DNA of 6,313 nt from Thioalkalivibrio sp. (GTDB lineage: Bacteria; Pseudomonadota; Gammaproteobacteria; Ectothiorhodospirales; Ectothiorhodospiraceae), in assembly GCA_003555285.1 (NCBI GenBank), contig PWGH01000027.1:1-6313 (forward strand), given 5' to 3'. Position numbers and translations under genes: made by a program. Positions within the stretch are counted from its first letter, which is position 1, and each line of letters starts with the position of its first letter. Below the pieces are notes generated by a model, which was not told the DNA's origin, made no database searches, and saw only the letters and a program-made list of their open reading frames with translations. Below are positions 1 through 6,313 of the stretch, piece by piece.

Positions 1-1
1 C

Positions 2-364
2 CCGAGCCTCGAGCGCCTGGTGGCCACCGGCGGACAGGCCGCAGTCATTCTGGGGGCCATCCTCGAGGGCATTCGAAAGAATCCCGGCATTTCCACCGGA
101 CGGCTGCTCGAACAGTTTCGCAACGATCCGCTGTTCCCGCGCCTGATGGCACTGGCCAGCCTGCCCCTGAACGACGAGGAGTCGGCGCTGGCGCGCCGGG
201 TCGCGCTCGACAGCGCCGATCGGCTGTTCCTCGAGCACTGTCGCGGCCGCATTCGCAGCCTGTCGATGATCGAGCGGCCGTTGCAGGCGGAAGAAATCAC
301 CGAGCTGCGCCGTCTTCAAGGTTGGTTGGTGGAGAATGGGGCGCCGGAGCGTCGGACACCGTAG
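2..364 (+). CDS. dnaG: DNA primase DnaG, C-terminal end (5' truncated by the window)
   Basis: The frame is open from the window edge and ends at TAG 362-364, giving 120 residues. They match the helicase-binding C-terminal domain of DnaG as I recall it from E. coli: ILEGIRKNPGISTGRLLEQF aligns with the E. coli stretch ELVERCLANPGLNTGQLLEHW, and a charged helical tail (ERPLQAEEITELRRLQGWL) follows, as in the E. coli end. DnaG makes the RNA primers for lagging-strand synthesis, and this domain docks it on the DnaB helicase at the fork. The zinc-binding and TOPRIM catalytic domains lie upstream of the window. The GTG at 20 is an internal valine codon, not a start. The next gene is rpoD, the usual gammaproteobacterial order (rpsU-dnaG-rpoD in E. 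coli), which supports the call. The sequence ends in an unconserved Arg/Pro-rich tail. Confidence 0.93.
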   Translation, partial: PSLERLVATGGQAAVILGAILEGIRKNPGISTGRLLEQFRNDPLFPRLMALASLPLNDEESALARRVALDSADRLFLEHCRGRIRSLSMIERPLQAEEITELRRLQGWLVENGAPERRTP

Positions 365-378
365 CGTCGGACGCCGTT
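349..378 (+). repeat. 15-bp tandem repeat across the dnaG stop codon
   Basis: Two adjacent 15-nt units, 349-363 and 364-378, match at 13 of 15 positions (GCGTCGGACACCGTA, then GCGTCGGACGCCGTT). The dnaG stop codon overlaps the junction. The second unit provides the start of the left arm of the hairpin at 373-399. It is probably a local slippage duplication; no function is claimed. Confidence 0.6.
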
Positions 379-399
379 GCGGTGCTGCGGCGCAACGGC
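373..399 (+). other. 9-bp perfect hairpin after dnaG (processing or stability element candidate)
   Basis: GCCGTTGCG at 373-381 pairs perfectly with CGCAACGGC at 391-399 around a 9-nt loop, starting 8 nt after the dnaG stop. No T-tract follows (the next bases are ACCCCTTGAAG), so it does not look like an intrinsic terminator. In E. coli the dnaG-rpoD interval carries an RNA processing site that gives the two cistrons different mRNA stability. A similar role, or 3'-end protection of dnaG mRNA, is an inference. Confidence 0.55.
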
Positions 400-403
400 A
401 CCC

Positions 404-431
404 CTTGAAGATCGGCCAATCCCCCCCACTG
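404..431 (+). promoter_or_regulatory. Candidate sigma-32 (RpoH) heat-shock promoter for rpoD
   Basis: CTTGAAG at 404-410 matches the sigma-32 -35 consensus CTTGAAA at 6 of 7 positions. After a 13-nt spacer, the C-run leads into CCCCACTG at 424-431, against the -10 consensus CCCCATNT. Order and spacing fit this promoter class. E. coli has a heat-shock promoter (Phs) for rpoD in the same gene context, inside dnaG. A start near 437-440 would leave a leader of about 220 nt before the rpoD ATG. The -10 match is imperfect beyond CCCCA, so this remains a candidate. Confidence 0.5.
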
Positions 432-545
432 TAGTGGGTATGAACTGCAGAGAGTATGAAGAGGATGCACGGCGCTGCCTACACGGAGTCGTCGGCAACG
501 GTCGAGAGGCACAGATCCGGTGAACCCTGGCGGCGCCACCCGGTC

Positions 546-562
546 AGAACTTCGCACGTTCT
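546..562. repeat. Short inverted repeat AGAAC-N7-GTTCT upstream of the rpoD promoter
   Basis: AGAAC at 546-550 and GTTCT at 558-562 are exact reverse complements with a 7-nt spacer, about 42 bp upstream of the -10 element at 607. Spacing and position would suit an activator or repressor half-site pair. The arms are only 5 bp, so chance is a real possibility. It is not the E. coli LexA box (CTG-N10-CAG). Confidence 0.25.
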
Positions 563-590
563 CTCTTACCACATCCAGAGGAAACCGCAA

Positions 591-620
591 AATCAGTATT
601 CTCTGCTATACTGACTGATT
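591..620. repeat. Overlapping palindromes enclosing the rpoD -10 element (operator candidate)
   Basis: Two exact inverted repeats overlap here. AATCAGT at 591-597 pairs with ACTGATT at 614-620 (16-nt spacer), and TCAGTA at 593-598 pairs with TACTGA at 609-614 (10-nt spacer). The -10 hexamer at 607-612 lies between and partly within the arms. A dimeric regulator bound here would cover the promoter melting region. The binding protein is unknown. Confidence 0.4.
604..612 (+). promoter_or_regulatory. Extended -10 promoter directly upstream of rpoD
   Basis: TGC at 604-606 followed by TATACT at 607-612 gives an extended -10 element (TGn plus a 5 of 6 match to TATAAT). The -35 position at 17-bp spacing (ACCGCA, 584-589) is poor, as is common with extended -10 promoters. 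Transcription would start near 619, leaving a leader of about 40 nt. This means the alternative TTG codon at 619 cannot be a useful start from this promoter, which supports the ATG at 658. Confidence 0.6.
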
Positions 621-657
621 GGCGGTTTTACACGATCTACGTCGGAGTGCGCACGCA

Positions 658-2535
<1,878 letters not shown>

Positions 2536-2556
2536 CCGGCCCGCACCCTTGTTCTC

Positions 2557-2632
2557 GGGCCTGTAGCTCAATGGTTAGAGCAGAAGACTCATAATCTTTT
2601 GGTTGCAGGTTCGAGTCCTGCCGGGCCCACCA
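2557..2632 (+). tRNA. tRNA with CAT anticodon, probably tRNA-Ile2 (lysidine type), otherwise tRNA-Met
   Basis: A complete 76-nt cloverleaf with encoded CCA. The acceptor stem GGGCCTG pairs with CGGGCCC (one G-U), discriminator A at 2629. The D stem is GCTC/GAGC with an 8-nt loop, the anticodon stem GAAGA/TCTTT (one G-U) encloses loop CTCATAA, and the T stem GCAGG/CCTGC is perfect with loop TTCGAGT. The anticodon is CAT at 2590-2592. It is not initiator tRNA: the anticodon stem lacks three G-C pairs and position 1 is paired with C72. Acceptor pairs C4-G69 and C5-G68, which are TilS identity elements, and the 8-nt D loop match E. coli tRNA-Ile2; E. coli elongator tRNA-Met has T4, A5 and a 9-nt D loop. 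The gene begins 21 nt after rpoD with no visible promoter, so it is probably processed from the rpoD transcript. Confidence 0.95.
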
Positions 2633-2655
2633 GTTTCTCAAGTACACCGGCCCCG

Positions 2656-2681
2656 GGTGCCGTGGTTCATGAGCCGGCACC
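2656..2681 (+). other. 7-bp hairpin downstream of the tRNA (weak terminator candidate)
   Basis: GGTGCCG at 2656-2662 pairs with CGGCACC at 2675-2681 around a 12-nt loop, 24 nt after the tRNA CCA end. There is no T-tract after it. It may protect the 3' end or help Rho-dependent termination. The rest of the gap to 2863 shows no reading frame I can support, no recognisable FMN riboswitch and no confident promoter. A 7-nt direct repeat AATGCCG (2764-2770, 2780-2786) is present. Confidence 0.3.
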
Positions 2682-2863
2682 GGCTGAACCGGGTCTGGTG
2701 AAACGCATGGGCGCACCTGCCGATCGCAGCGCGGCGCCGCTCGACGCATCGTGCCTGCCATTGAATGCCGTCTCCAATCAATGCCGGATAACCACGATGG
2801 CCGGATGCGCACGGCCGGCCCTGCCGAATCGTGCACTGTCCCGAACCTCAGAGAGACCGATGC

Positions 2864-3715
2864 ATGTTTACCTACATCGACCCCACGGTGCGCACACGCC
2901 TGATCGCCCAAGGCAAGCTGACGCGGATCGATGCCGCGGGCACGGTCATGGATGTCACCCTGGCCGATGTGCCCGGGGAATTGGCACTGGATATTCTTGG
3001 TCCGATCGCGCTGCCGGTCGCGATCACCGACGAACCCCTGGTCGTCCAGTGGTACGTCTTCGTGCGCCGCACCGAGGTGGCGAAGGTCGATGACCTGGCG
3101 GCCGAATTGCGCGAACGCGGCGCGCAGCATCTGTTTGCGTCCCTGACCGCCTCGATGGCGGTCAACAGCCTGCTGGTGATCGGCGAACCGCAACCCTCAG
3201 GCAATCCGTTGGTCCGGGTCCACTCGAATTGCCTCACCGGCGATGTCTTCGGCTCGCAACGCTGTGATTGCGGCCCGCAGCTGGCCGCCGCGGTCAAGCA
3301 GATCCAGAAGGATCCTGCCGGCGGCTACCTGGTGTACATGGCCGGGCACGAGGGACGCGGCATCGGGCTCTGGGCCAAGGCCGCGACCTACCTGCTCCAG
3401 GACGGCGGCGAAAACACCTACGAGGCCAATCGCAGCCTCGGGCTTCCGGACGACTCCCGGGACTTTGCCGACGCCGCCGCCATCCTCAAGTGGCAGCTGG
3501 GCGATCAGCCCTTTCGCCTGCTGACGAACAATCCGAAGAAGGTCGCGGACCTCGCCGCGCACGGCCTCGAGAACGTCCAGCCGATCAAGCACCTGGCCGG
3601 GGTCGATCAATGGAACCGGCGTTACCTGCAGGCGAAGCAGACCTGGGGCCACGTCATCACCGAAGACGACCTGATGCTGAGTCCCATCGCGCCGACGGTG
3701 CCCGGGAAGGCCTGA
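2864..3715 (+). CDS. ribA: GTP cyclohydrolase II (RibA family) with extended N-terminus
   Basis: The product is 283 residues. GTP cyclohydrolase II opens GTP to 2,5-diamino-6-ribosylamino-4(3H)-pyrimidinone 5'-phosphate, formate and pyrophosphate, the first step of riboflavin synthesis, in the cytosol. The core from about residue 112 carries RVHSNCLTGDVFGSQRCDCG with zinc ligands Cys123, Cys134 and Cys136, then HEGRGIGL (162-169), Tyr176, Asp197 and Arg199 (equivalents of E. coli Tyr105, Asp126 and Arg128), and LLTNNPKKV (219-227). It should be active. E. coli RibA reaches RVHS about 70 residues sooner, so residues 1 to about 70 are extra. They lack the acidic signature of DHBP synthase, so this is not a bifunctional RibBA. 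Start: ATG 2864 has AGAGAG at 2850-2855 eight bases upstream; the in-frame GTG at 2831 lacks a site as good. No other rib gene is nearby, so it may be a second copy or serve another deazapurine- or pterin-like pathway. Confidence 0.9.
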   Translation: MFTYIDPTVRTRLIAQGKLTRIDAAGTVMDVTLADVPGELALDILGPIALPVAITDEPLVVQWYVFVRRTEVAKVDDLAAELRERGAQHLFASLTASMAVNSLLVIGEPQPSGNPLVRVHSNCLTGDVFGSQRCDCGPQLAAAVKQIQKDPAGGYLVYMAGHEGRGIGLWAKAATYLLQDGGENTYEANRSLGLPDDSRDFADAAAILKWQLGDQPFRLLTNNPKKVADLAAHGLENVQPIKHLAGVDQWNRRYLQAKQTWGHVITEDDLMLSPIAPTVPGKA

Positions 3716-3727
3716 CCCGAGGCCTTT
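3707..3727 (+). terminator. Weak hairpin terminator candidate at the ribA stop
   Basis: AAGGCCT at 3707-3713 pairs exactly with AGGCCTT at 3720-3726 around a 6-nt loop, and the left arm runs into the first base of the TGA stop (3713-3715). Only three T residues (3725-3727) are available, two of them inside the stem, so termination would be inefficient or Rho-aided. Confidence 0.3.
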
Positions 3728-3861
3728 GATCCGGGGCAACGATTGGCTTTGCGGGTGCGCCCGGCCCGCCGCCCACACCCGAAGGCGCACGGCGCAGGGC
3801 CCAAAGCCGAACGCCGCCCGACTCGGCCGGTGTTCCCCCGGACGCCCCCCCTCGGTCAGCA
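3728..3861. other. GC-rich non-coding gap after ribA
   Basis: No convincing gene is seen here. A nested pair of helices can be drawn: GGCTTTG at 3745-3751 with CAAAGCC at 3802-3808, enclosing CGGGTG at 3752-3757 with CACCCG at 3776-3781. In such GC-rich sequence this may be chance. An unlisted structured RNA is possible but unsupported. Confidence 0.3.
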
Positions 3862-3903
3862 GGAAACCCCACCCGCATACTCGACTTGCCAAGTGGGTTT
3901 TCC
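3862..3903. repeat. Interrupted inverted repeat overlapping a promoter (operator candidate)
   Basis: GGAAACCCCAC at 3862-3872 and GTGGGTTTTCC at 3893-3903 are reverse complements at 10 of 11 positions with a 20-bp spacer. A second, inner palindrome ACTTG-C-CAAGT (3884-3894) sits on the -35 element. The right outer arm fills most of the spacer between -35 and -10. Since transcription starts downstream, it would act as DNA, for example as a site for a dimeric or looping regulator of the small exported protein gene. Confidence 0.5.
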
Positions 3904-3914
3904 CTGTGTATATT
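3886..3914 (+). promoter_or_regulatory. Sigma-70 promoter of the small exported protein gene
   Basis: TTGCCA at 3886-3891 (5 of 6 to TTGACA) and TATATT at 3909-3914 (5 of 6 to TATAAT) are separated by exactly 17 bp. The expected start near 3921 gives a leader of about 55 nt containing the 10-bp palindrome GACCCGGGTC (3947-3956) and an AGGA ribosome-binding site. This is the strongest promoter visible in the window. Confidence 0.8.
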
Positions 3915-3975
3915 AGGAATCACTAATTCAACAAACCCTTTGAACAGACCCGGGTCCCCCGGAAGGAAACTCGCC

Positions 3976-4377
3976 ATGATCAAGAACTACGCACTGAAGA
4001 CCCTCGCCGCTGCGGCCTTGCTTGCTTCTGCCGGCGCCCTGCAGGCCACCGAACCGAACACCCCCGCCCAACTCGGCTACGAAGTCGGCATGAGCGGTGA
4101 GGTCTCCTACAGCGGCCGCTTCCCGACCCAGGCGATGGAAAACCAATACAACGCCTACCTCGTCTGGATCGCCGAAAACGACCTCGACGTGACGCATGCG
4201 ATCGACGCCCGTATCCGTCCCGTCGCCTCGCTGGACGGCGCGAGGAATGGCAACGTATCGGCGACCGGCCGGTTCCCGACCCAGGCCATGGAAGACCAGT
4301 TCATTGCCTACCAGCAGTGGGTCGCGACCACCGACGTCGAAGCCGACTACGCCTTCCGGCTGGCCGGCGTCAATTAA
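3976..4377 (+). CDS. Small exported protein with duplicated GRFPTQAME module (function unknown)
   Basis: The product is 133 residues and I do not recognise the family. Residues 1-24 form a typical Sec signal peptide: Lys3 and Lys8, a hydrophobic Leu/Ala core, and ALQA before Thr25 as a signal peptidase I site. There is no lipobox cysteine, and the mature protein (about 109 residues) has no cysteine. It contains two copies of one module at 41-72 and 92-123, 51 residues apart, 18 of 32 positions identical. The shared pattern is GxVSxxGRFPTQAMExQxxAYxxWxAxxD, with the core GRFPTQAME invariant. The conserved Arg, Gln, Tyr and Trp suggest a repeated binding or assembly unit in the periplasm or outside the cell (inference). 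Start: ATG 3976 with GGAAGGAAA at 3961-3969 eight bases upstream of the start after AGGA. It has its own promoter and an intrinsic terminator, so it is a single-gene unit. Confidence 0.9.
   Translation: MIKNYALKTLAAAALLASAGALQATEPNTPAQLGYEVGMSGEVSYSGRFPTQAMENQYNAYLVWIAENDLDVTHAIDARIRPVASLDGARNGNVSATGRFPTQAMEDQFIAYQQWVATTDVEADYAFRLAGVN
4096..4191 (+). repeat. Module copy 1 of the exported protein
   Basis: Encodes residues 41-72 of the exported protein. The core at 4114-4140 (GRFPTQAME) matches copy 2 at 25 of 27 nucleotides, which points to an internal duplication or to strong constraint with shared codon choice. Confidence 0.8.
4249..4344 (+). repeat. Module copy 2 of the exported protein
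   Basis: Encodes residues 92-123, starting 153 nt after copy 1. The invariant core is at 4267-4293. Outside the core the copies differ mostly conservatively: S/T, Y/F, N/D, I/V, L/V. Confidence 0.8.
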
Positions 4378-4392
4378 GTCCGGCTCGGTATC

Positions 4393-4431
4393 GGGGAATC
4401 GGATCGTGCCGCAGCGGCGATCCGATTCCCC
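4393..4431 (+). other. 14-bp perfect hairpin after the exported protein gene
   Basis: GGGGAATCGGATCG at 4393-4406 pairs without mismatch with CGATCCGATTCCCC at 4418-4431 around an 11-nt loop, 15 nt after the stop codon. No T-tract follows. A true intrinsic terminator lies 17 nt further on, so this stem is more likely a 3' mRNA-stabilising structure or a DNA palindrome bound by a protein. An alternative fold GCCGC/GCGGC (4408-4418) uses the loop. Confidence 0.75.
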
Positions 4432-4447
4432 ACCTGATTGACTCTGT

Positions 4448-4476
4448 GCCCCGGCCCTGCCGGGGCTTTTCTTTTT
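4448..4476 (+). terminator. Intrinsic (Rho-independent) terminator
   Basis: GCCCCGG at 4448-4454 pairs with CCGGGGC at 4460-4466 around a 5-nt loop, followed directly by TTTTCTTTTT at 4467-4476. This is the canonical form and ends the transcript of the small exported protein gene. Confidence 0.9.
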
Positions 4477-4514
4477 CCGGATCCGGACCGGGCCGCCACA
4501 GGGACCGCGGCCCG
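4477..4514. other. Palindrome and 8-bp hairpin in the gap before the ATPase gene
   Basis: CCGGATCCGG at 4477-4486 is a perfect 10-bp palindrome. CGGGCCGC at 4489-4496 pairs with GCGGCCCG at 4507-4514 around a 10-nt loop. The remaining gap to 4658 has no supported gene. TTGACG at 4563-4568 is a possible -35 element, but the 17-bp partner GAGACT (4586-4591) is weak, so the ATPase promoter is not identified. Confidence 0.4.
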
Positions 4515-4658
4515 TTGGCGGGCAAAATCCCCGGGGCCTCACGTTCCCACGGCGTCAACCCCTTGACGCGCACTGGATGGGCCCGGAGACTGAGGGGTCC
4601 ACCGAGTACTTCGTGATTCCCCTTCCGCCGTTGCGCCGACCTTGGGGGTATAAACACC

Positions 4659-6313
4659 ATGTACGAAGGTTTCTACCGCCTCAAAACCGATCCCTTCCGC
4701 CTGAGCTCGGACCACCGCTTCTGTTTCAACCACCGAAGCTACGCCCGAGCCAAGGCCTATGTCGAATACGCCCTCTATCGCGCCGAGGGCTTCGTAATGA
4801 TCACCGGTCGACCCGGGACCGGCAAGACCACCCTGATCCAGGATCTGCTGGACAGCCTGCCGCGTAACCAGGTGAAGGCCGCGACCCTGGTCAGTACGCA
4901 ACTGGGGGCCGAAGACCTGTTGCGCATGACCGCCTATGCCTTCGGGCTGGATTCCCACGCCGAGCACAAGTCGACGGTGTTGCAGGATCTGATGGAGTTC
5001 TTGTCCAAGGAGCATCGAACCGGCCACCGTAGCCTACTGATTATCGACGAGGCCCAGGATCTGGTCGCCTCGGCGCTGGAGGAACTGCGGCTACTGACCA
5101 ACCTCCAACGTTCCGGCCAGCCCCTGCTGCAGATCGTGCTGGTCGGACAGGAAGCCCTGCGCACGCTGGTTCGCGGCCGCGCGCTGGAGCAGCTGCACCA
5201 ACGGCTGGTGGCCGCCTGGCATCTGGACCCGTTGGATCGCGAGGAAACCGTCAGCTATGTCCGGCATCGACTGGAACGCGCCGGCTGGACCGGCGATCCG
5301 GTGTTCGAACCGGGCGTACTGCCGATCGTGTTCGACTTCAGCGGCGGGGTCCCCCGGCGCATCAACCTGATCTGCAGCCGGCTATTGCTGCACGGCTTCA
5401 TTACCGAGCGCCATACGCTTACGGCCACCGATGCCGAACTCGTGGTCCGAGACCTGGAGCAGGAAGAACTGGCCCTGCCGCCCTACGAGACACAAGACCC
5501 GCTCTCGGGTTTCGAGGGCGCAGGCGCCGACAACGAAGGCGCCGCCGGCCGCAACGACGCGGTCTTTGCGGAGGCACGCGGCGGCGATCCGGTGTGGTCC
5601 GAGATCGATCATGGCCTCTACCCCGCGGTGCAAGCGGAACCCCCCGAGCCGCCGGCCGACACCCGGATCGAACCCGCGGTACCCGCGACCGAAGCGGGCG
5701 TCGAACCCATCCGCACAGCGGTCCAGAACCCGCGCGCCCCCGTTCCCTCGGGCCTTTCAGCGACGGCATCGTTCTCGACAGACGTCGCGACGGCGCCGCC
5801 CATCGACGCGGGCACTCCGGATGGAGACCGTGCCGCCGCCGCGCCACCCCACATCGTGCCGGAAAAGGATTGGCCGGAAAAGGATTGGCCGAAGCAGAAC
5901 GGGCCAGAAATCGATCAGCCGCAACCGGATTGGTCCCCGCGGGCCCCGCGTCAGAAATCGATAGCCGAGGAGTCGATACGGGCGATCGACCACTCGCGCC
6001 CGAAGGCCCACAGAAGCGCCTACCTGCTGTGGACCCTGGCCGCCGCCGTGCTAAGCTTTTCTGCAGTACTAGGCGCATTGCAGCTTTACCGGCCGGCCGT
6101 TCTTGAAACCACGATCACCCGCCTGGAGCCGAGCCTGGCGCAATTCCAGGGCTGGGTAAACGACTCCTCGGCGGCGGCTCGGGGCACCCTGAACGCCTGG
6201 TTCGAGGGCGTCGAGCCGGGAATACCGGAGTCCACGGCCAACGACCATACCCGCAACCCCGAGCCTCGCGCCGAAGTGGCTCCGGGCACGTCGTCGGCCG
6301 TCACACCGTCGAC
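4659..6313 (+). CDS. ExeA/GspA-like AAA ATPase with transmembrane anchor (3' truncated by the window)
   Basis: The frame is open from ATG 4659 to the window edge, 551 codons without a stop. A GGGGG ribosome site (4644-4648) lies ten bases upstream. Residues 1 to about 270 are an ExeA/GspA-type ATPase: MYEGFYRLKTDPFRL start, Walker A GRPGTGKT (50-57), Walker B LLIIDEA (126-132), sensor region LQIVLVGQ (157-164), Arg-rich LHQRL (179-183), and GGVPRRIN (229-236). Closest in memory are the ATPases of PEP-CTERM/XrtA exopolysaccharide loci (TIGR03015 type), MshM of MSHA pili, and the ATPase-SPOR DamX proteins. Residues 271-450 are a Pro/Ala/Glu-rich linker, 455-477 one transmembrane helix, and 478-551 the start of a presumably periplasmic domain. 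The ATPase would be cytoplasmic and anchored to drive envelope assembly. A C-terminal peptidoglycan-binding or SPOR domain would be expected in ExeA or DamX types but is outside the window. Confidence 0.88.
   Translation, partial: MYEGFYRLKTDPFRLSSDHRFCFNHRSYARAKAYVEYALYRAEGFVMITGRPGTGKTTLIQDLLDSLPRNQVKAATLVSTQLGAEDLLRMTAYAFGLDSHAEHKSTVLQDLMEFLSKEHRTGHRSLLIIDEAQDLVASALEELRLLTNLQRSGQPLLQIVLVGQEALRTLVRGRALEQLHQRLVAAWHLDPLDREETVSYVRHRLERAGWTGDPVFEPGVLPIVFDFSGGVPRRINLICSRLLLHGFITERHTLTATDAELVVRDLEQEELALPPYETQDPLSGFEGAGADNEGAAGRNDAVFAEARGGDPVWSEIDHGLYPAVQAEPPEPPADTRIEPAVPATEAGVEPIRTAVQNPRAPVPSGLSATASFSTDVATAPPIDAGTPDGDRAAAAPPHIVPEKDWPEKDWPKQNGPEIDQPQPDWSPRAPRQKSIAEESIRAIDHSRPKAHRSAYLLWTLAAAVLSFSAVLGALQLYRPAVLETTITRLEPSLAQFQGWVNDSSAAARGTLNAWFEGVEPGIPESTANDHTRNPEPRAEVAPGTSSAVTPS
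5859..5888 (+). repeat. Perfect 15-bp tandem repeat in the ATPase linker
   Basis: CCGGAAAAGGATTGG occurs twice in direct succession (5859-5873, 5874-5888) and encodes PEKDW-PEKDW at residues 401-410. The repeat is in frame, so copy-number change would alter linker length without a frameshift. Confidence 0.85.

Follow-up and report, generated by a model that had tools for sequence, protein, structure and literature searches.

A two-module exported protein and its flanking elements

The DNA examined here, hereafter the window, is a stretch of 6,313 nucleotides from Thioalkalivibrio sp. (NCBI GenBank assembly GCA_003555285.1, contig PWGH01000027.1, positions 1 to 6,313 of the forward strand). 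It carries a gene for a predicted exported protein that is built from two related modules, and this gene is accompanied by a promoter, a putative operator, a likely ribosome-binding site and a terminator-like hairpin (Table 1). The sigma-70-like promoter has 10 of 12 matches to the consensus, and one such site was found where 0.2 would be expected. The operator-like repeat ATTAGGAATCACTAAT is the sole match with no more than one mismatch in the window (0.01 expected). Both elements had been described in the original prediction, which was made from the letters of the window alone, and both are borne out. The terminator described there is also present as a hairpin, but with two such hairpins found against 1.3 expected it is weak on statistics alone.

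Table 1. Features of the two-module gene and its flanks, in window coordinates
Feature	Position	Strand	Basis or placement
Sigma-70-like promoter, TTGCCA-17 nt-TATATT	3886..3914	+	Consensus scan
Conserved inverted repeat ATTAG-N6-CTAAT, putative operator, overlapping the -10 region	3912..3927	.	Upstream alignment
Likely ribosome-binding site GGAAGGAAA	3961..3969	+	Sequence, by eye
CDS, two-module exported protein, 133 aa	3976..4377	+	ORF translation, family search
N-terminal signal peptide, about residues 1-24	3976..4047	+	Sequence, hydropathy; cleavage position by eye
Module 1, residues 41-75; core GRFPTQAME 47-55; predicted helix 52-67	4096..4200	+	
Module 2, residues 92-126; core GRFPTQAME 98-106; predicted helix 103-119	4249..4353	+	
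Perfect 14-bp inverted repeat, arms 4393-4406 and 4418-4431	4393..4431	.	Between stop codon and terminator hairpin
Intrinsic terminator-like hairpin, then T tract	4448..4466	+	Hairpin scan

If cleaved after residue 24, the mature protein has a mass of about 12.0 kDa, a pI of 4.3 and no cysteine. At the place where a signal peptide had been proposed, a crude hydropathy test shows a hydrophobic N-terminal segment of the kind that signal peptides have, and the same test finds a hydrophobic N terminus in 125 of 129 family proteins (P0001-P0129). The two modules, which had been described as 51 residues apart with 18 of 32 residues in common, have exactly this relationship: at an offset of 51, 18 of the 32 residues at positions 41-72 are identical, 20 are identical over the whole protein, and the best self-alignment score is 106, as compared to a maximum of 31 in 300 shuffled versions. 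Within residues 41-82 the modules agree at 19 positions; the codon is also the same at 11 of these and differs at 8, which suggests an old duplication that has been kept at the protein level.

An AlphaFold2 model computed with 123 sequences (mean pLDDT 67.8, pTM 0.59; pLDDT 73-89 in blocks within residues 41-120) predicts one long helix in each module and a third helix at residues 125-131. Because both long helices begin inside the FPTQ motif, the core of each module is plausibly a helix cap followed by an aromatic helix. A Foldseek comparison of the model to 350,542 PDB chains gave no fold match at E <= 0.001.

An unnamed protein family

A phmmer search with the window protein recovered 77 proteins at E <= 0.001, query included, from 494 candidates. 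A profile search extended the family to 226 proteins (7995 scored), and a profile built mainly from diverged Chromatiaceae members yielded 174 (7993 scored). Among the matches listed (120 for each profile), the source names are 'hypothetical protein' or, for P0043 and P0046, 'predicted porin', and the organisms are Thioalkalivibrio sp., Halochromatium roseum, Halochromatium sp., a Chromatiaceae bacterium and a Pseudomonadota bacterium. On genome contigs, 13 of 47 candidate stretches proved to be family loci, of which 10 are from Thioalkalivibrio metagenome-assembled genomes (MAGs) and one each is from a Gammaproteobacteria bacterium, a Candidatus Thiosymbion and a Chromatiaceae bacterium.

Homologues typically have two modules: by regular expression, 115 of the 129 proteins have two motifs, 13 have one and a single protein has three. 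The mature proteins of this set are acidic (mean pI 4.4), and 83 of the 129 have no cysteine after residue 22. The GRFPTQAME core, which had been called invariant, is indeed nearly so in close relatives but is relaxed to [FL]PTxxM..QF..YLxW in Chromatiaceae-type relatives, for which identity to the window protein is 22-29% (eight compared). In distant relatives the common core is this pattern followed by ..AF, and it is present twice.

A second piece, LEPC[IM]NGxVSxSG, lies N-terminal to the core in many family members. Short exported proteins from scattered gammaproteobacteria also carry this segment, singly or as tandem copies, and 24 short or partial relatives (L028-L029, L040-L056, L085-L087, L091, L095) have one or two segments of this type with the helical half mostly absent. 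A survey of the class detected it in 5 of 369 genomes; one of these is the genome of the query itself, and another gave a weak match that lies in an unrelated frame.

The original prediction recognised no family with this signature. In agreement, searches of Pfam, NCBIfam, PDB and PHROGs by sequence or fold revealed no characterised family for the window protein. The Pfam family for sulfur globule proteins (PF17228, Sulphur globule protein) gave no match to the window protein up to E 10 and was not among the 25 families listed in a Pfam scan of 35 members; the window protein also lacks the alternating Gly/Tyr-rich composition of sulfur globule proteins. The Salyut domain (PF19227), which the papers listed for it treat in connection with plant viruses, scores 15.6 bits against a cut-off of 27 bits, and 20 of the 35 members match it at E <= 10 (best E 0.0014). 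FPTQAME and six further peptide strings from the family gave zero matches in the text of the papers searched. Together, the sequence comparisons establish a real, unnamed family of exported proteins and its modular construction.

A conserved inverted repeat precedes family genes

When the region upstream of the window gene is aligned with those of 14 relatives (L014-L027), the inverted repeat is the most conserved stretch. We extended this comparison to the 150 nucleotides upstream of 25 genes for two-module proteins (the window gene together with L014-L027 and L030-L039). Some of these are from Chromatiaceae, and their products have about 22-29% identity to the window protein (eight compared). 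The site is present without mismatch in 10 regions, with no more than one mismatch in 24 and with no more than two in all 25. As a control the pattern was reversed, which leaves a palindrome of identical composition; it gave 0, 0 and 2 matches in the same regions. The site begins 51-66 nucleotides before the start codon in 24 genes and 48 nucleotides before it in the 25th, and its consensus among family genes is TA-ATTAG-N6-CTAAT-A. Part of this conservation is inheritance, because the 25 upstream regions share ancestry. The proposal that the gene is regulated through an operator is strongly supported by the preservation of this site.

The 24 short or partial relatives were omitted from this set. 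Among them, 17 gave no ATTAG-type repeat of any kind; for some of the 24 (L046) the assumed start codon is doubtful. The operator sequence in four spellings had zero matches in the text of the papers searched.

The same site precedes sulfur globule protein genes in relatives

The other genes that share the site were identified in the genomes of relatives rather than in the window's own genome. Ten family-carrying genomes (G001-G009 and G042) contain 35 exact sites, as compared to one for the control. In 47 genomes of the taxonomic family to which G001 belongs, 143 exact palindromes were found against 6 for a composition-matched palindromic control, and 12 Chromatiaceae genomes have 31 exact sites against 4.

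Of the 35 sites, 10 precede sulfur globule protein genes, 4 precede genes for similar proteins and 5 precede two-module family members. The rest are at genes for 8 HlyD-type membrane-fusion proteins, 3 DUF302 proteins, 2 YgaP-like membrane proteins, one rhodanese and one LysR regulator. The last site is cut off by a contig end and is identical in sequence to a sulfur globule protein site of that genome. These classes were assigned by regular expressions and reading after the 30 non-family sites were fetched, and Pfam identity was established on examples: PF17228 for a sulfur globule protein (E 8.1e-9, above the cut-off) and for a globule-like protein (E 9.6e-5, below the cut-off), PF16576 for an HlyD-type protein, PF03625 for DUF302, PF11127 for a YgaP-like protein and PF00581 for the rhodanese. 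The 10 globule proteins are Gly/Tyr-rich exported proteins distributed over 9 of the 10 genomes (not G008), and the 4 similar ones are exported proteins rich in Gly, His and Tyr. At the 10 globule protein genes the site begins 151-159 nucleotides before the start codon in 9 cases and 77 nucleotides before it in one.

In Chromatiaceae, the 18 of 31 sites that were read include 3 at sulfur globule protein genes (L187, L192 and L193; PF17228 E 2e-22, 2.3e-21 and 4.9e-23), 2 at family genes, one at an HlyD-type gene and one at a gene for a QmoA/HdrA-like flavoprotein, where the palindrome is 216 nucleotides away (L178; named by eye, with general FAD families in Pfam). The remaining 11 have no assignment.

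These comparisons place one operator ahead of both two-module family genes and sulfur globule protein genes in the relatives, and this sharing points to a likely biological setting for the two-module protein. Because it has the same DNA control site as the globule coat proteins, the protein is a candidate new part of sulfur storage. The place of the family in a regulon linked to sulfur globules is, at the level of sequence, well supported. The original prediction of a regulated, possibly abundant envelope or secreted factor is supported in part, as regards control through an operator; a strong promoter, abundance and release from the cell stay hypothetical. The link to globule protein genes was absent from it. 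A literature search at the level of result listings, over openly accessible papers, surfaced no operator for sgp genes.

The regulon extends beyond globule proteins. The motif was found in 46 of the 47 genomes, including all 20 without a sulfur globule protein match, and thus the site is not specific to globule protein genes. It also precedes genes that have no known globule tie, including HlyD-type/MIF and LysR genes and, as judged by eye, TolC-like and UbiB-like genes. The same palindrome lies ahead of multihaem cytochrome genes (L202, PF11783; L204, by eye). At least six of the eight HlyD-type genes are divergent from a gene for an MIF-type tautomerase, and HlyD-type genes that have the operator and this divergent arrangement recur in many genomes of the G001 family (L121, L130, L133, L143, L144, L146, L206, L210, L212, L213, L216 and L218).

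Family members co-occur with multiple sulfur globule protein matches

PF17228 matches at E <= 0.001 occur in 27 of the 47 genomes, 25 of which exceed the cut-off. A family search of the same genomes gave 12 with a match; in two of them (G046 and G049) the match is partial, which leaves 10 genomes that carry the two-module family. Each of these 10 has 3-5 sulfur globule protein matches, a number reached by only 3 of the 37 others (G025, G026 and G027, with 3-4 matches and no two-module family). The hypergeometric probability of this co-occurrence is 5.5e-8, a value that ignores shared ancestry. Among 210 Chromatiaceae genomes, sulfur globule proteins are present in 191, whereas the family is found in 27 at any coverage and in 13 at E <= 3e-18. 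Because globule proteins are so much more widespread, globules do not need the two-module family; it is better viewed as an optional addition to a cell that already bears them.

The Thioalkalivibrio-labelled MAGs (G001-G009 and G042; loci L117-L146) each have several PF17228 matches. According to PMC8877833, sulfur globule proteins are absent from Ectothiorhodospiraceae, whereas PMC10386293 counts Thioalkalivibrio as one of the bacteria whose intracellular globules have an envelope. The PF17228 matches agree with the second paper and run against the first as far as the MAG lineage around the window is concerned.

A candidate regulator

Background on related repressors suggests a regulator for this site. 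The NolR consensus (A/T)TTAG-N9-A(T/A), as given in PMC12445080 and PMC8960804, occurs in 25 of 25 upstream regions; when the upstream region of the window gene is shuffled, 2.4% of the shuffled versions contain it. The SqrR-type operator ATTC-N8-GAAT (PMC9774250) occurs in none of the 25.

All 47 genomes encode a BigR-like ArsR protein with 78-100% identity, which looks strict for a regulator. One of these ArsR proteins matches the structures of BigR, HlyU, YgaV and NolR as well as 6o8l-type entries, which we take to be SqrR; the best PDB match is BigR 3pqj (E 1.7e-19). Its two cysteines both align with those of BigR, the arrangement seen in BigR/SqrR-type proteins. PMC8960804 places the two cysteines of such sensors in helix 2 and close to the C terminus, and describes the BigR pair as sensing reactive sulfur. 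In 10 of 10 loci read by eye, the ArsR gene is followed by a rhodanese gene, presumably YibN-like, and in several by a glutaredoxin-like gene.

The protein thus resembles the BigR/SqrR/YgaV/NolR/HlyU subfamily in structure matches, cysteines and, through NolR, the operator. It differs from BigR and SqrR in that it scores 82.1 bits against a cut-off of 155 for the BigR equivalog (NCBIfam NF040642) and in that the SqrR site is missing from the upstream regions. The site was not found ahead of the ArsR gene itself in the 10 loci examined. Because of this absence and the score below the BigR cut-off, the ArsR protein is a candidate regulator and not a result. A repressor of the BigR/NolR-type ArsR subfamily nevertheless appears to be the most likely regulator.

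Possible roles of the two-module protein

Sulfur globules serve sulfur bacteria as a major storage structure, and established protein components are few (SgpA-D in Allochromatium vinosum; PMC10386293). In the reading that we favour, the two-module proteins form a new family whose members are periplasmic, probably associate with globules and belong to a sulfane-sulfur regulon. In the model that we infer, which extends to repression, the identity of the regulator, the sulfane-sulfur signal, the periplasmic location and contact with globules, transcription of the gene would begin at its own promoter and be governed by a regulator occupying ATTAG-N6-CTAAT over the -10 region. Accumulating sulfane (zero-valent) sulfur would react with the two cysteines of the repressor, causing it to leave this site. 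Derepression would then allow the two-module protein to be made along with the coat proteins of the globules, a subunit of an exporter, and proteins of the DUF302, YgaP-like and rhodanese types. The two-module protein would be a Sec-exported, acidic, cysteine-free periplasmic protein with two helical [FL]PTxxMxxQFxxYLxW modules, and the conserved F, Y and W of its core helices could face sulfur, polysulfide or the Gly/Tyr coat. Since the mature protein has no cysteine, its composition argues for a structural or adaptor role over covalent sulfur carriage.

Because in related genomes the same operator precedes sulfur globule protein, HlyD-type, DUF302, YgaP-like and rhodanese genes, the two-module protein would be made together with machinery for handling and storing sulfane sulfur. 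Our preferred reading, which we hold with about as much belief as doubt, is that it has an accessory or structural role at the surface or in the vicinity of sulfur globules in the periplasm, co-produced in the sulfane-sulfur regulon via a BigR/NolR-type repressor. In a broader form, a BigR/NolR-type ArsR acting through ATTAG-N6-CTAAT in sulfur-oxidising gammaproteobacteria would co-induce globule coat proteins and the two-module helical family, the latter being new, Gly/Tyr-free globule components with a new fold. We advance this broader proposal tentatively, with our doubts outweighing our confidence.

The protein might instead belong to the sulfane-sulfur regulon yet act away from globules, as a periplasmic accessory of the HlyD-type exporter or in a response to reactive-sulfur stress. 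HlyD-type subunit genes account for 8 of the 35 exact sites, and the DUF302, YgaP-like and rhodanese genes share the operator as well, but the largest target class is that of sulfur globule proteins (10 of 35, plus the 4 similar ones), and we judge this alternative to be rather unlikely. Neither an exporter nor a sulfur globule protein gene was found beside the family gene in 13 loci (L001-L013) or the window (tblastn, E <= 1e-5), such that gene order is neutral between the globule and exporter readings.

A more distant alternative would dispense with sulfur altogether: the protein could serve the envelope in general or adaptation to haloalkaline conditions, with an operator that answers to another cue such as redox state or oxygen. 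The acidity of the mature proteins would suit such a role, as would the closest named relatives, which are from Thioalkalivibrio, with others from Halochromatium, all haloalkaline or saline genera; the occurrence of the site in genomes with no detected globule protein points the same way. We nevertheless consider it improbable, since sulfur functions dominate the target genes that have a recognised family, and 12 of the 13 named genome loci are from sulfur-oxidiser lineages (the other is an unclassified gammaproteobacterium). Finally, the inverted repeat overlaps the -10 region in family genes and could be mainly a promoter feature, an AT-rich -10 variant without shared regulation, in which case the link to globule genes would be coincidental. 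The great excess of exact palindromes over the palindromic control, together with a spacing at globule protein genes that is unlike that of most family genes, makes this explanation very hard to sustain.

Among known systems, SgpA/B/C (PF17228) are the closest to the preferred globule-associated protein, in that they are small, exported and repetitive, occur in the same lineages and, in relatives, share the ATTAG-N6-CTAAT operator. They are Gly/Tyr-rich and very hydrophobic, whereas the window protein has acidic helical modules. SgpD of A. vinosum (PMC10386293), a Sec-exported accessory globule protein that is discussed as a possible coiled coil and whose gene adjoins a hydrophobic/amphiphilic exporter, offers a precedent by analogy rather than by homology. 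HlyD-type subunits, such as the one that shares the operator here, serve exporters of the hydrophobic/amphiphilic class. Given a defined 16-bp site that is common to globule protein genes and an unnamed family, the switch for globule formation becomes directly testable, as does the question of which further proteins take part.

Other features of the window

An ExeA-like AAA ATPase gene (4659-6311; named by eye, PF13401), which encodes a long linker and a later hydrophobic segment, is cut by the end of the window, and no tie between it and the two-module protein was seen. A tRNA gene with a CAT anticodon (2557-2632) lies directly 3' of rpoD. ARAGORN calls it a Met tRNA, but it could be an Ile tRNA with a modified CAT; in E. 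coli, ileX is located near rpoD.
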